From Egibacter rhizosphaerae (GTDB lineage Bacteria > Actinomycetota > Nitriliruptoria > Euzebyales > Egibacteraceae), in NCBI RefSeq assembly GCF_004322855.1, contig NZ_CP036402.1, positions 2,480,001 to 2,544,000 on the forward strand: a stretch of 64,000 bases of DNA, read 5' to 3'. Position numbers and translations under genes: made by a program. This document shows positions 23,218 to 56,136 of the stretch, in pieces (positions within the stretch are counted from its first letter, which is position 1; each line of letters starts with the position of its first letter). Under the pieces are notes generated by a model. It searched no databases, was not told the DNA's origin, and saw only the letters and a list, made by a program, of their open reading frames with translations.

Positions 23218-23656
23218 GTGTCCTCCTGCGTCGCCGTTGCGTCGGGTGCGGGACGTCGGCTCGTCTTTGTCGGTCGTCTGTCGCTGCGGGGTCGCCCGGG
23301 TGGCTGCGGAACCGGGATCGAGCGTGCGCGGTCTCCGGTCTGGGGGCAGTCTGCCCCGCGGGTCAGGGGGGTCAAGCGCGTGCTGCCCCCAACCGTAGGT
23401 CTCCCGGGGTGCTGGTGGGTTGTCACACCGGGTGTGGGTGGTGTCTCGCCGGGGTGTGGGTGGGTGTCTCGTCGAGCGGTGCGGGTTGGCGTCCCCACGT
23501 GTCGGCCGTAGGATCGCGCCGTCTGCTCGCTGCGCGGCGTGCGGCGAGCGCGCCCGCGGTGGGTGGATCCGATGGGTTCGCCGACCTCGCTGCCGGATGC
23601 GGCGAGCGGCGCGGGCCCGTCGGACCCGGACCGTCGATCCGAGCTGGAGGCCCGCC
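23218..23656. other. divergent intergenic region, no gene
   Basis: 439 bp between the divergent starts of the aldolase and the first dodecin gene. I see no supportable gene. It holds an inverted repeat TGGGGGCAG (23341-23349) / CTGCCCCCA (23383-23391) and the G-rich tandem repeat at 23404-23471. Promoters for both genes must lie here but no clear hexamer pair stands out. Confidence 0.6.
23404..23471. repeat. G/T-rich tandem repeat, three imperfect copies
   Basis: Three units of 24, 21 and 23 bp, each beginning CCGGGGTG or CCGGGTG and ending in TGTCACA or TGTCTCG. They lie in the divergent control region, far from any stop codon, and so differ from the stop-anchored arrays. Confidence 0.7.
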
Positions 23657-23860
23657 ATGGCCGTGATCAAGACCATCGACCTCGTGGGCGTGTCGACCGA
23701 GTCGTGGCGGGATGCCGCGCACAAGGCGCTCGCCGAGGCGTCCAAGACGCTCCGCGGTATCGAGGGCTTCGACGTGCTCGAGACCTCCGCGACCGTCCAG
23801 GACAACGAGATCGACGAGTACCACACGCACATCCGCATCCGATTCCGCCTGGAGCGGTAG
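23657..23860 (+). CDS. dodecin 1
   Basis: 67 aa. Typical dodecin: [20 protein letters not shown] helix start, then [36 protein letters not shown], the beta sheet that builds the flavin-binding dodecamer. Dodecins store or buffer flavins in the cytoplasm. A paralogue lies at 57884-58093. The last codons form the first unit of the tandem repeat at 23851-23945. Confidence 0.92.
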
Positions 23861-23945
23861 GCCCGGTGGGAGTGCCGGAGCGGTAGGCCCGGTGGGAGTG
23901 CCGGAGCGGTAGGCCCGGTGGGAGTGCCGGAGCGGTAAGCCGGGG
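23851..23945 (+). repeat. stop-anchored tandem repeat, about 3.5 copies, period 26
   Basis: GGAGCGGTAG, the last two codons and stop of dodecin, recurs at 23851, 23877 and 23903, with a variant ending TAA at 23929. Because 26 is not a multiple of three, the successive stops (23858, 23884, 23910) fall in all three frames. The array ends about 60 bases before the purA start. Confidence 0.92.
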
Positions 23946-24003
23946 GATGATCCGGCACCATGGATGTGGACGTGCGACCGCCGCACACGCGAGGAGCGAG
24001 CCG

Positions 24004-25281
24004 ATGGGCGCGATCATCGTTGTCGGCACCCAGTGGGGTGACGAGGGCAAGGGCAAGGCCACCGATCTGCTGGCCGACGACGTGGGCTACGTCGTGCGCT
24101 ATCAGGGGGGCAACAACGCGGGCCACACGATCATCGTGGGCGACCGCACGCTGAAGCTCCACCTCGTGCCGAGCGGGGTCATGTACCCGGCGGTCACGCC
24201 GGTGATCGCCGACGGGGTCGTCCTCGACCCGGGGGTCCTGTTGGAGGAGCTCGACGAGCTCGTCGCCCAGGGCCTCGACGTCTCGAAGCTCGCGATCAGC
24301 GGCAACGCGCACCTGATCATGCCCTATCACCGTGAGCTCGACCGCGTGACCGAGCGGTACCTCGGCAAGCAGAAGCTCGGCACCACCAAGCGCGGCATCG
24401 GGCCCGCGTACGCGGACAAGGCCGCACGGGTGGGGCTGCGCGTGCAGGACCTGTACGACATGAAGATCTTCCGCCAGAAGCTCGACACGGTGCTGAAGGA
24501 GAAGAACGCGGTCCTCTCGCGCGTCTACAACCGCATGCCGATGAGCGCCGCCGAGATCGAGACCGAGTACGCGGTCTATGCCGAGCGCCTGCGCCCGTAC
24601 ATCGCCGACACCGTCAGCCTGCTGCATGACGCAATGGACGGCGGCGAGCGCGTGCTGCTCGAGGGTGCCCAGGGCACGCTGCTCGACCTCGACCACGGCA
24701 CCTATCCGTTCGTCACCTCCTCGAACCCGGTGGCGGGGGGTGCGCTGACCGGCGCCGGTGTCGGCCCGAACGACATCGAGCAGGTTATCGGGATCACGAA
24801 GGCGTACGTCACCCGGGTCGGGTCGGGGCCGTTCCCCACCGAGCTCGACGGCGAGATCGCCGAGCGGATCACCGACCGGGGCGCCGAGTACGGCACGACC
24901 ACGGGCCGTCGCCGGCGCGTGGGCTGGTTCGACGCGGTGCTCGCCCGTTACGCGGCGAGGGTGAACGGCCTGACCGAGCATTTCCTCACCAAGCTGGACG
25001 TTCTCAGCCAGTTCGAGACGGTGCGGCTGTGCCGTGCCTACCGCTACCAGGGCGAGGAGTACGAGCACTTCCCCCCTCACCAGTCGATCATCCACCACGC
25101 CGAGCCGGTGTACGAGGACCTGCCCGGTTGGCACGAGGACATCTCCGGGGTGACCGAGTTCAGCGACCTGCCGAAGGAGGCGCAGGCCTTCGTCGAGCGC
25201 ATCGAGGAGCTTGGCGGGGTCCCCGTCCGGTGGGTCTCGGTCGGCCCGGCCCGCAGCCAGACGCTCGAACGGGGTCGCTGA
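24004..25281 (+). CDS. purA: adenylosuccinate synthetase
   Basis: 425 aa, ATG at 24004 with GAGGAG upstream. The GTP-binding loop is GDEGKGK at residues 12-18. The other family signatures follow: [21 protein letters not shown], the IMP-binding loop [19 protein letters not shown] and the C-terminal [14 protein letters not shown]. It joins IMP and aspartate using GTP, the first committed step to AMP. purD follows three bases after its stop, so the two are one transcription unit. Confidence 0.97.
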
Positions 25282-25284
25282 CCG

Positions 25285-26571
25285 GTGAAGGTGCTCGTGC
25301 TCGGGGGCGGCGGGCGCGAGCACGCCCTGTGCTGGGCGCTCGACCGTTCCCCCTCGGTGCAGGAGGTCGTCTGCGCGCCCGGCAACCCCGGCATCGCTGA
25401 GGTGGCGGACGTCCGCGCGCTTGACGTGACCGACGACGAGGAGGTCGTGGCGCTCGCCCGGGCACTGGCCGCGGACCTCGTCGTCGTCGGGCCGGAGGCG
25501 CCGCTGGTCGCGGGCGTGGCGGACGCGTTGCGCGGGGCGGGTGTGGCGGTGTTCGGTCCTTCCGCCGATGCGGCGCGGCTCGAGGGCTCGAAAGCGTTCG
25601 CCAAGGAGGTCATGGCTGCCGCGGGGGTGCCGACGGCCCGCTGGTGGACCGGGGACGACGCCGAGGCGGCCCGCGCCGCTCTGGACGAGTTCGCACCGCC
25701 CTACGTGGTGAAGGCGGACGGGCTCGCCGCGGGGAAGGGTGTCGTGATCGCCAGCAGCCGGTCCCAGGCCGAGGACGCCGTCGACGAGGCGCTCGTGACC
25801 GGTGCGTTCGGTGAGGCCGGCCGACGCGTCGTGCTGGAGGAGTTCCTCCAGGGCCCGGAGGTCAGCCTCTTCGGCGTTGCCGACGGGCAGTACGCCCGCG
25901 CGCTCGTCGCGGCGCAGGACTACAAGCGGATCGGCGACGACGACACCGGCCCGAACACCGGCGGGATGGGGGCGTACTCCCCGGTACCCGCGCTCGACGA
26001 CGCGGCGGTCGAGGCACTCGGCGAGGCGATACTCGGTCCGGTGGCCGCGGCTCTCGCCGAGCGCGGCACCCCGTACGTCGGAGTGCTCTACGCAGGGCTG
26101 GTGATGACGCCGGACGGCCCGAAGGTGCTCGAGTTCAACGCGCGCTTCGGCGACCCCGAGGCGCAGGCCTTCCTGCCGCGCCTGCGCGCCGACGGTCCGG
26201 GCGACCTCGGCTTGCTGTTGTCCGCTGCTGCGCGCGGCGATCTTCCCGGTGCACCGCCGCTCGCGTGGGACCGGCGGGCCTGCGCGACGGTGGTGTTGGC
26301 CTCGGCCGGGTATCCGGCCTCCTCCTCCTCGGGGGACCCGATCTCGGGCGTGAGGGAGGCCGCCGCGGTGCCGGACGCGCTGGTGTTCCACGCCGGCACG
26401 GCTGTGGAGGAGGGCGAACTCGTCACCGCGGGCGGGCGGGTGCTCTCCGTCTCGGGTCTGGGGGCGACCGTCGCCCAGGCGCGGGCGATCTCGTATCAGG
26501 CCGCGGACCGGATCTGGTTCGCGGGTCAGCAACGGCGGGAGGACATCGCGGCTCGGCCGCTCGGCGGCTGA
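25285..26571 (+). CDS. purD: phosphoribosylamine-glycine ligase
   Basis: 428 aa with a GTG start ([19 protein letters not shown]). ATP-grasp enzyme with the family segments [38 protein letters not shown], and [16 protein letters not shown], ending in the PurD C-terminal domain ([22 protein letters not shown]). It makes GAR from phosphoribosylamine, glycine and ATP. Co-transcribed with purA. Its 3' end starts a 44-bp duplication. Confidence 0.96.
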
Positions 26572-38478: not shown

Positions 38479-39408
38479 ATGTTCGAGCCGACCCGCCCCG
38501 CGGACCCTGCCGAGCTCCCCCGAGTGGTGCGACTCGAGCCCGGCAAGGTTCGCGAGCGGTACGCGGTCGGTGACGACGCGATCCTGCTCGTCGCCAGCGA
38601 CCGGATCAGCGCCTTCGATGTCGTGTTGCCCACGCCCATCCCCGACAAGGGCCGGGTCCTCACCGGGCTCACCGACCACTGGCTCGACGAGCTCGCGGAC
38701 CTGCTGCCCACCCACCGGATCACCTGCGACGTCGCGGCGATGCCCGCGGGGCTCGCGGCGTTCGCCGACGAACTGGAGGGTCGGGCGATGCTCTGCCGGC
38801 AGGCGGCTCCGTTGCCCGTCGAGTGCGTCGCCCGTGGATATCTGGCCGGCTCGGGGTGGGCCGACTACCGCGCCACGGGAACCATCGGCGGCGTGCCGCT
38901 GCCGCCCGGCCTGGTGGAGGCGGCCGAGCTGCCCGAGGCCGTGTTCACGCCGTCCACGAAGGCCCGGGACGAGGGCGCGCACGACGAGAACATCGACCAT
39001 GCCGCCGTGGCCGGGCTCGTCGGTGGGGACCTGGCCGAGCGGCTCGAGACGCTCACGCTGCAGGTCTACGAGCGCCTCGCCGAGCGGGCCCGCGCCGCGG
39101 GCCTCATCCTCGCTGACACGAAGCTCGAGTTCGGCCTGATCGACGGCGAGCTCGTGCTGATCGACGAGGTCGGCACGCCCGACTCGTCGCGCCTGTGGCC
39201 CGAGGCCGAGTGGGAACCCGGCCGCCCGCCACCCTCGTTCGACAAGCAGCCGCTGCGCGACTGGCTGACCTCCAGTGGCTGGGATCGTCGCCCGCCCGGC
39301 CCCGAGCTGCCCGACGAGGTCGTCGCCGCGACGCGCGAACGCTACGTTGCCGCGTACGAGCGGTTGACCGGCCGGCCCTTCTCGGCCTGGGCCGCTCCCG
39401 GGCCCTGA
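38479..39408 (+). CDS. purC: SAICAR synthetase
   Basis: 309 aa. Family segments: GKVRERYAVGDDAILLVASDRISAFD, PVECVARGYLAGSGWADYRATGTIGG, FTPSTKARDEGAHDENI, LILADTKLEFGLIDGELVLIDEVGTPDSSRLW. Condenses CAIR with aspartate using ATP. It starts a run of purine genes (purC, S, Q, L) on this strand. Its stop codon begins a five-unit decaying tandem array. Confidence 0.97.
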   Translation: MFEPTRPADPAELPRVVRLEPGKVRERYAVGDDAILLVASDRISAFDVVLPTPIPDKGRVLTGLTDHWLDELADLLPTHRITCDVAAMPAGLAAFADELEGRAMLCRQAAPLPVECVARGYLAGSGWADYRATGTIGGVPLPPGLVEAAELPEAVFTPSTKARDEGAHDENIDHAAVAGLVGGDLAERLETLTLQVYERLAERARAAGLILADTKLEFGLIDGELVLIDEVGTPDSSRLWPEAEWEPGRPPPSFDKQPLRDWLTSSGWDRRPPGPELPDEVVAATRERYVAAYERLTGRPFSAWAAPGP

Positions 39409-39505
39409 CCGCCGATCCCGAGGCCTGACCGCCGATCCCGAGGCACGACGGCCGATCACGAGGTACGACCCGCCGACCACGAGGCACAACCCGCCGATCG
39501 CGCGA
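39404..39505 (+). repeat. stop-anchored tandem array after purC, 5 copies, period 20
   Basis: CCTGACCGCCGATCCCGAGG, beginning with the last base of the final codon region and the purC TGA, is repeated exactly at 39424. It then decays through units at about 39444, 39464 and 39485 in which TGA has become ACGA or ACAA. Divergence increases with distance from the gene. Confidence 0.9.
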
Positions 39506-39802: not shown

Positions 39803-40602
39803 GCGAGCGGCGCACCCGACCGGCTCGCCGCTTGACCGAGCGGCTCGCGCGCCGGTCCGGCAAGGATCCCTACGAGGGGCTGCCGGTCGACGACGAGCTC
39901 GGGGAACCGATCCTGCCGCGCTGGTTCGTCCTCACCGCGCTGGCCTTCGTGCCTCTGGTCCTCGTCGTCGGCGGCATCGCGTTCCTCGGGTTCGGGACCG
40001 GCCTGCTGGGGGGTGAGGACGTGCCGGCGGCCGAGCGCCGTCCGCCCCCCGAGGGGCCGTATACTACCGGGGTGGGCGAGCTCGTCGCGGGCGAGGCCGA
40101 TCCCGAACGGATCGACGCGCCTTGCTCGGCCGCGGAGGGGCTGCGCGTGGCCGGGACCGAGCAGGACCGGGCAACGCTTTACGGAGCGGTCGACGCGGCC
40201 TGCGACTCCCTGGGCGAGGTCGACGAGCTCGCGGACGGGCTCGAGCCGCTAGCCGATCACGGCGCGATCCTGCGCTTCGCGACGTTCGAGGCGACAGGGG
40301 TCGACGTGACGACCGACCTGGTCTCCGACCCGCCGGTGGTGTACGCGAACGCGCGCTACGCCCAACAGGCCGCCGAGTTGATCGTGCCGCTGCTGGCCCA
40401 CGAGGCGGACCTGCTCCGCGCGGCTGACCGGGGGGACGAGCTCGACGGCGCACGGACCGCGCTCGACGCGCGGGCACGCCAGGCCCGGGCCTGCGAGGCG
40501 GCCCTCGACCGGCCGAGTCGGGCGTGCGAGGACACCGCCGAGCTGCTCGCGCTCGAGCGCGAGGAGGCCGTGGAGCGCCTGCGTGCAGCCGGCTTCCGCT
40601 GA
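39799..40602 (+). CDS. unknown single-span membrane protein within the pur cluster
   Basis: 267 aa; GTG start overlapping the purS stop by four bases (GTGA), so translation is coupled to purS. A basic cytoplasmic N-terminus (about 1-40) precedes one TM segment (about 42-68, WFVLTALAFVPLVLVVGGIAFLGF). The remainder, predicted outside, is helical and acidic with four Cys (in APCSAAEG, AACDSL, ARACEAAL, SRACEDTA). No family recognised. Its place between purS and purQ is curious because those subunits are usually adjacent. Confidence 0.8.
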   Translation: MSERRTRPARRLTERLARRSGKDPYEGLPVDDELGEPILPRWFVLTALAFVPLVLVVGGIAFLGFGTGLLGGEDVPAAERRPPPEGPYTTGVGELVAGEADPERIDAPCSAAEGLRVAGTEQDRATLYGAVDAACDSLGEVDELADGLEPLADHGAILRFATFEATGVDVTTDLVSDPPVVYANARYAQQAAELIVPLLAHEADLLRAADRGDELDGARTALDARARQARACEAALDRPSRACEDTAELLALEREEAVERLRAAGFR

Positions 40603-40669
40603 CCGTCCACACGTCGATCTCCGCTGACCGTCCACACGTCGGCCTCCCCTGACCGTCTGTTCGTCGGCG
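40595..40669 (+). repeat. stop-anchored tandem array, 3 copies, period 25
   Basis: TCCGCTGACCGTCCACACGT, including the gene's TGA, recurs at 40620 and, with changes, at 40645. The TGA is kept in all three units, and as the period is 25 the stops (40600, 40625, 40650) fall in all three frames. purQ begins 17 bases after the array. Confidence 0.92.
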
Positions 40670-40685: not shown

Positions 40686-41378
40686 ATGCGGATCGGCGTC
40701 GTGCAGTTCCCCGGCTCGTGCGACGAGCGCGACGCGGTACGTGCCCTCGTGCTGCTCGGTGCCGAGCCCGTGTTGATCCGCCACGACCACGACCGGCTCG
40801 ATGGCGTCGATGCGGTCGTGTTGCCCGGCGGCTTCACGTACGGGGACTACCTGCGCACGGGTGCCCTGGCGCAGTTCGCCCCGATCATGTCGGCGGTCGC
40901 CGCCTTCGCGGAGCGCGGGGGACGCGTGCTCGGGATCTGCAACGGCTTCCAGGTGCTGTGCGAGGCGGGGCTCCTGCCCGGCGCGCTCGTGCGCAACGTG
41001 GGGCTGCGATTCGTGCACCGTCGGCAGCCCGTCCGGGTCGAGCGCACCGGTCCGTGGCTCGCGGCGCCGACTGGTGCGGTGCTCGAGCTGCCCATCAAGC
41101 ACGGCGAGGGCCGTTACGTGGTCGACGATCCCGACGGCCTGGCCGCATCGGGGCAGGTGTTGCTCCGCTACTGCGACGCCGACGGGGCCGTCACCGACGC
41201 CGCGAACCCGAACGGCTCGGTGCGGGGGATCGCTGGCGTCACCAACCGCGGCGGCAACGTCGCCGGCCTCATGCCCCACCCCGAGCACGCCGTCGAGGCC
41301 CTGCTCGGCCCGACCGACGGGAGGGCCGTCCTCGGGACGGTGGGCACTCCCGGGAGCGTGCGGGCCGGCGCCGGGTAG
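40686..41378 (+). CDS. purQ: FGAM synthase glutaminase subunit PurQ
   Basis: 230 aa, class I glutamine amidotransferase. Nucleophile Cys85 in GICNGFQVL, catalytic His/Glu in LMPHPEHAVE, and the N-terminal GVVQFPGSCDERDAV. Feeds ammonia to PurL with PurS as linker. Its own stop is the first of four in-frame TAG codons in the following array. Confidence 0.96.
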   Translation: MRIGVVQFPGSCDERDAVRALVLLGAEPVLIRHDHDRLDGVDAVVLPGGFTYGDYLRTGALAQFAPIMSAVAAFAERGGRVLGICNGFQVLCEAGLLPGALVRNVGLRFVHRRQPVRVERTGPWLAAPTGAVLELPIKHGEGRYVVDDPDGLAASGQVLLRYCDADGAVTDAANPNGSVRGIAGVTNRGGNVAGLMPHPEHAVEALLGPTDGRAVLGTVGTPGSVRAGAG

Positions 41379-41446
41379 TGCCCCGGGTTCCGGTAGTGCC
41401 CCGGGGTCGGGTAGTGCTCCGGGGTCGGGTAGTGCTCCGGGGTGGG
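41371..41446 (+). repeat. stop-anchored tandem array after purQ, 4 copies, period 18
   Basis: GGTAGTGCYCCGGGGT-like units place TAG at 41376, 41394, 41412 and 41430. The period is exactly six codons, so all four stops are in the purQ frame. The array ends 17 bases before the 3' end of the small convergent gene. Confidence 0.93.
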
Positions 41447-41462
41447 TCTCAGCGCCGCGTCG

Positions 41463-55463: not shown

Positions 55464-56099
55464 ATGAGGTGGCTGCGCACGCTGCTGCGTGATCTGACGG
55501 GGCGACGCGACGGCGAGTTCGTCGGGATGCTGCAGGGCCAGGTCGACTGCGGGATCTCGGCGGCCGCGTGGCTCCGGGACGCGGCTGCGGGCGACACGGG
55601 CCTCGACGAGGCCCTCGCGGAGGTGCGCCGGGTCGAGGCCGAGGCCGACCGGACACGGGACACCCTCGTGGCGGAGCTGAACCGGTCGCTCACGACGCCG
55701 CTCGACCGTGAGGACCTGATGCGCCTGTCGCGGGCGCTCGACAACGTCGTCGACAACCTGCGGGACCTGGCGGATACACTCGACGCATTCCGGGTGAGTG
55801 ACCCGAGCGGTTGTGTTCGGCCCCTCGACGAGCTCTGGGCGGGGCTCAACGCGCTGCATGCCGTGATCGGGCAGCTCGACGGGGGGTCGATCGCGGGACT
55901 GGCGGCCGCGGCGCGAGACGCGAAACGGGTCAGCCGGGTGCGCGTCGCTTTCGTGGAGGGGCTGCGGGAGCTGTTCACCGAGCCGGTCACCGGTGACGTG
56001 CTGGCCCGACGCGAGTTGCTGCGGCGCCTCGACGTGGTCGGGCTGCGCCTGGGGGAGGCCTGCGACGCGCTCGCCGACGCGGCCCTCAAGCGCGCGTAG
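55464..56099 (+). CDS. DUF47/PhoU-like partner of the Pit transporter
   Basis: 211 aa, ATG at 55464 after GGAAGGGACGAGCG. All-helical PhoU-like protein: VEAEADRTRDTLVAELNRSLTTPLDREDLMRLSRALDNVVDNLRDLADTL is the DUF47 signature. Such proteins regulate the neighbouring Pit transporter. Its last codons begin a 24-bp tandem duplication. Confidence 0.92.
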   Translation: MRWLRTLLRDLTGRRDGEFVGMLQGQVDCGISAAAWLRDAAAGDTGLDEALAEVRRVEAEADRTRDTLVAELNRSLTTPLDREDLMRLSRALDNVVDNLRDLADTLDAFRVSDPSGCVRPLDELWAGLNALHAVIGQLDGGSIAGLAAAARDAKRVSRVRVAFVEGLRELFTEPVTGDVLARRELLRRLDVVGLRLGEACDALADAALKRA

Positions 56100-56136
56100 C
56101 CGACCGCCCGCAAGCGCGCGTAGCCGACCGCCCGCC
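56087..56136 (+). repeat. stop-anchored tandem repeat, 2 exact copies, period 24
   Basis: Lys-Arg-Ala-stop plus 12 more bases (unit begins AAGCGCGCGTAGCCGACC at 56088) is repeated exactly from 56112. The period is eight codons, so the second TAG is in frame with the first. Confidence 0.92.

Follow-up and report, generated by a model that had tools for sequence, protein, structure and literature searches.

The gene for dodecin, a small flavin-binding protein, ends in the window analysed here (a stretch of 64,000 nucleotides) inside a tandem repeat that copies its stop codon into all three reading frames, and this raises the question of whether the repeated stops serve a purpose or are the by-product of an ordinary duplication. 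Direct reading of the sequence and TRF analysis both agree with the initial annotation, which had reported the positions of the 26-bp repeat, the TAA variant of its last unit, the presence of stops in every frame and the location just before purA. GGAGCGGTAG begins at 23851, 23877 and 23903, and GGAGCGGTAA begins at 23929; the array comprises 3.5 copies with a 98% match and no indels (Table 1). Copies 1-3 are identical in 26 of 26 bases, and the fourth matches them for 13 bases, with TAA in place of TAG as the only difference, before the similarity ends. The TAG triplets of the plus strand at 23858, 23884 and 23910 fall in three different frames and are followed by TAA at 23936. As a repeat, the array is far beyond chance, and it shows two hallmarks of a minisatellite, namely near-identical head-to-tail copies with a period between ~10 and 100 bp (here 26 bp x 3.5, 98%) and a location outside the coding sequence (81 of the 91 bases lie in the dodecin-purA spacer). 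The remaining 10 bases, with which copy 1 starts, are the last 10 bases of dodecin, i.e. the array begins within the final three codons of the gene, and its 3' edge is located 62 bp upstream of the purA ATG. A second, more decayed array with a 23-bp unit (TRF score 88) is found upstream of dodecin, at 23399-23471.

Table 1. Coordinates (window numbering) of the genes, signals and tandem arrays discussed in the text.
Feature	Position	Strand	Basis or remark
Promoter-like TTGGCG-17-TAGGAT before dodecin	23486..23514	+	putative, read by eye
Dodecin gene, 67 aa, C-terminal end ...RFRLER*	23657..23860	+	Pfam PF07311, E 4.2e-22
26-bp tandem array (minisatellite)	23851..23941	+	unit GGAGCGGTAGGCCCGGTGGGAGTGCC; TRF score 175
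TAG, genuine dodecin stop, in copy 1	23858..23860	+	sequence
Dodecin-purA spacer, 143 nt	23861..24003	+	65 nt minus three extra 26-bp units
AGGAG ribosome-binding site of purA	23992-23996	+	seen in sequence
purA, adenylosuccinate synthetase	24004..25281	+	Pfam PF00709, E 2.8e-180
purD	25285..26571	+	Pfam PF01071/PF02844/PF02843; starts 3 nt after purA
Stop-spanning array	39391-39499
Stop-spanning array	40590-40657
Stop-spanning array	41372-41447
Stop-spanning array	56066-56135

The spacing of the genes suggests that dodecin, purA and purD are co-transcribed as one probable operon. The promoter-like sequence upstream of dodecin was not reported by the consensus scan, which covers TTGACA/TATAAT types, and a literature search for a link between dodecin and purA returned nothing relevant. 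The extra copies of the repeat make up 78 nt of the spacer, and the stops at 23884, 23910 and 23936 fall in its untranslated sequence, outside any frame in use.

We compared the genome (4.64 Mb, one contig) with 20 other genomes of its family. Dodecin is located directly upstream of purA in 13 of them, and in this conserved pair the two genes sometimes abut or overlap. The spacer ranges from a 1-nt overlap (-1) to ~60 nt in the 12 same-family genomes measured by script and is ~8 nt, as read by eye, in the thirteenth (G008); the 26-bp repeat was not found in the dodecin-purA spacer of any of these 13 relatives. Since their spacers are short and devoid of the repeat, as opposed to 143 nt here, the expansion appears from the sequence comparison to be lineage-specific: the array is absent from the other genera of the family, its own genus being represented in the comparison by this genome alone. 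The C-terminus of dodecin in the relatives also reads RFR-L/I-E/D-R*, hence the end of the protein is unchanged. The initial annotation had regarded the expansion as "recent or maintained"; the three perfect copies and their absence from the measured same-family spacers agree with the former, and the latter found no support.

Several other identities of the array were considered and rejected. The unit GGAGCGGTAGGCCCGGTGGGAGTGCC has no second site in the 4.6-Mb genome with up to 3 mismatches allowed, and the idea of a dispersed element was dropped on account of this uniqueness. The core GAGCGGTAGGCCC occurs in one other array (genome positions 1252827-1252920) and at one single site (2050832), which we treat as coincidence, because by our own estimate roughly one site is expected from the base composition alone. 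A structured RNA element or an intrinsic terminator was likewise rejected, as the Rfam search of positions 23300-24100 (E up to 1) returned no match, the terminator scan reported no terminator-like site at the locus, and the predicted RNA fold of the array was not significant (z -1.65). Antisense ORFs running across the array were discounted as stop-free frames due to GC richness.

The array is very probably an ordinary intergenic minisatellite (a VNTR-type locus) within the probable dodecin-purA-purD operon, generated by a tolerated duplication that spanned the stop codon. We infer both the mechanism of this duplication and its neutrality. A tandem duplication would have started in the final three dodecin codons and carried the stop codon along, whereupon replication slippage or unequal recombination could have expanded the array to 3.5 copies. 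The first copy preserves the frame and the stop of dodecin, leaving the protein unchanged, and purA would be translated from its own ribosome-binding site farther downstream. A stop-spanning duplication would be tolerated because the first copy, the frame and the stop stay intact.

Similar arrays are common in this genome. A survey of 1.264 Mb sampled from the genome (27% of its length), with genes called by a simple home-made hexamer model, revealed 85 non-coding tandem arrays with a score of at least 60, and the dodecin array ranks 21st among 102 non-coding arrays of this sample. An order-level relative (G029, family f3), sampled over 600 kb, has non-coding arrays at a comparable density, and strong non-coding arrays were far fewer in a 200-kb sample of a same-family genome (G015). 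Coding arrays with a score of at least 80 have a period that is a multiple of 3 in 36 of 37 cases (otherwise in 1 of 37), as expected if frame-breaking arrays are removed; among the non-coding arrays the period is not a multiple of 3 in 43 of 67.

According to a count based on the home-made gene caller and a simple null model, 28 of 67 non-coding arrays span a stop codon, about three times the 9.7 expected under random placement, and only 2 of 67 span a start codon (11.5 expected). The excess on stops must in part reflect intolerance at the 5' side of genes, because divergent spacers also hold fewer arrays, and convergent ones more, than expected. No such excess was observed in G029 (3 of 16 arrays, 3.5 expected). 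Pfam confirmed several of the genes located upstream of stop-spanning arrays (among them purC, a purQ-type glutamine amidotransferase, an AIR-synthase-like gene and a BMC-domain gene). Apart from those in the window (Table 1), stop-spanning arrays were collected from sampled stretches L138, L206, L216 and others. Two of those in the window, with unrelated units, accompany other purine genes: one lies in the purC-purS spacer (39391-39499) and one after purQ (41372-41447). The purC-purS gap looks much shorter in relatives (for instance, ~12-22 nt between matches in G001 and G011, compared to ~170 nt here). A cluster with a bacterial-microcompartment (BMC) gene in L206 (5218-6034) carries a different stop-spanning array in each of three successive spacers (27, 18 and 19 bp). 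We regard the excess on stop codons as a lead rather than an established result. It counts against a purely neutral picture, which accounts for only part of it, and arrays may have a real preference for gene ends. We consider it unlikely, however, that tandem duplication in this lineage is targeted to the 3' ends of genes by a process linked to termination, with the dodecin array as one of its products.

An alternative reading of about the same low probability is that the array tunes purA, the longer spacer weakening the coupling to dodecin or altering mRNA stability, so that copy number would act as a slow expression dial. The measured spacers of the relatives, often overlapping or abutting and nowhere longer than ~60 nt, do differ from the 143 nt found here. 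An effect on purA expression is also possible by analogy, because translational coupling falls off with distance and works best over short gaps (PMC12548453), and because fpg1 mRNA levels in M. tuberculosis correlate with repeat length at rnc-fpg1 (PMC2734929). Against such tuning, purA retains its AGGAG site, the folding of the array is not unusual, and many other gene pairs bear unrelated arrays, i.e. there is nothing special to purA.

A tolerated minisatellite also accounts for the stops in all three frames, to which the initial annotation had implicitly attached a meaning. Such cover is an arithmetic by-product of the 26-bp period and not a device, because any stop-bearing unit whose period is not a multiple of 3 provides it automatically (two of three periods). 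The implied meaning of the stops in all frames is not borne out, as the later stops sit in the spacer and not in a used frame, the periods of non-coding arrays are flat modulo 3 (24/19/24), and stop triplets are not significantly better kept than their surroundings. The idea that selection favoured the repeated stops as a fail-safe, there to catch ribosomes that leave dodecin by read-through or in a shifted frame, could draw on their presence in all three frames and on the frequent retention of the stop triplet in later copies of stop-spanning arrays (61 of 75). If selection acted to close all frames, few stop-spanning arrays should have a period divisible by 3, but remainders 0/1/2 occur in 10/10/13 of them. 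Counted without controls, the stop triplets of later copies did look selected (56/68 kept, versus 63% of other triplets), but matching by position left no significant difference, and selection of this kind was rejected: stop bases of later copies are identical in 202/225 positions (90%), compared to 975/1126 (87%) for their context (paired Wilcoxon p = 0.16). With the relatives' spacers, from -1 to ~60 nt, also lacking a repeated stop unit, we find a fail-safe function highly improbable. That the copy number is an assembly or sequencing artefact is just as implausible: perfect tandem copies are prone to mis-counting, but the array (91 bp) is below the typical short-read length, and the one-contig genome contains many others like it.

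Among known repeats, the dodecin minisatellite most resembles ETR-F / VNTR3239, the intergenic repeat between rnc and fpg1 in the Mycobacterium tuberculosis complex (PMC2734929). There, too, an array fills the spacer between two co-directional genes in one lineage only, with a short spacer in outgroups: the repeat-filled rnc-fpg1 intergenic regions measure 279-358 bp, as opposed to anything from several bases up to some tens of bases in other mycobacteria (PMC2734929). Unlike the dodecin array, the 37-bp rnc-fpg1 repeats start 40 bp past the stop codon and not inside the gene (PMC2734929); they are polymorphic among strains and linked to the mRNA level, whereas the dodecin array is known from the sequence of one genome. 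Short tandem units in intergenic spacers are likewise typical of the mycobacterial interspersed repetitive units (MIRUs), some of which overlap the stop and start codons of adjacent operon genes. MIRUs, however, form one dispersed family with about 41 loci (PMC2734929), whereas the 26-bp unit is confined to a single locus (up to 3 mismatches), so membership in that family was rejected. The array otherwise resembles generic bacterial intergenic VNTRs or minisatellites, with a period of 10-100 bp, a few near-identical non-coding copies arranged head-to-tail and a locus-specific unit, but it differs from them in that it starts within a gene and takes in the stop codon of that gene. It is new only as an individual locus.

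By itself, the array matters little, being a minisatellite that is specific to the lineage, sits in a spacer and does not alter the proteins, with a possible use as a typing marker. The arrays found on stop codons throughout the genome might help in asking whether duplications are targeted to gene ends or merely tolerated there.
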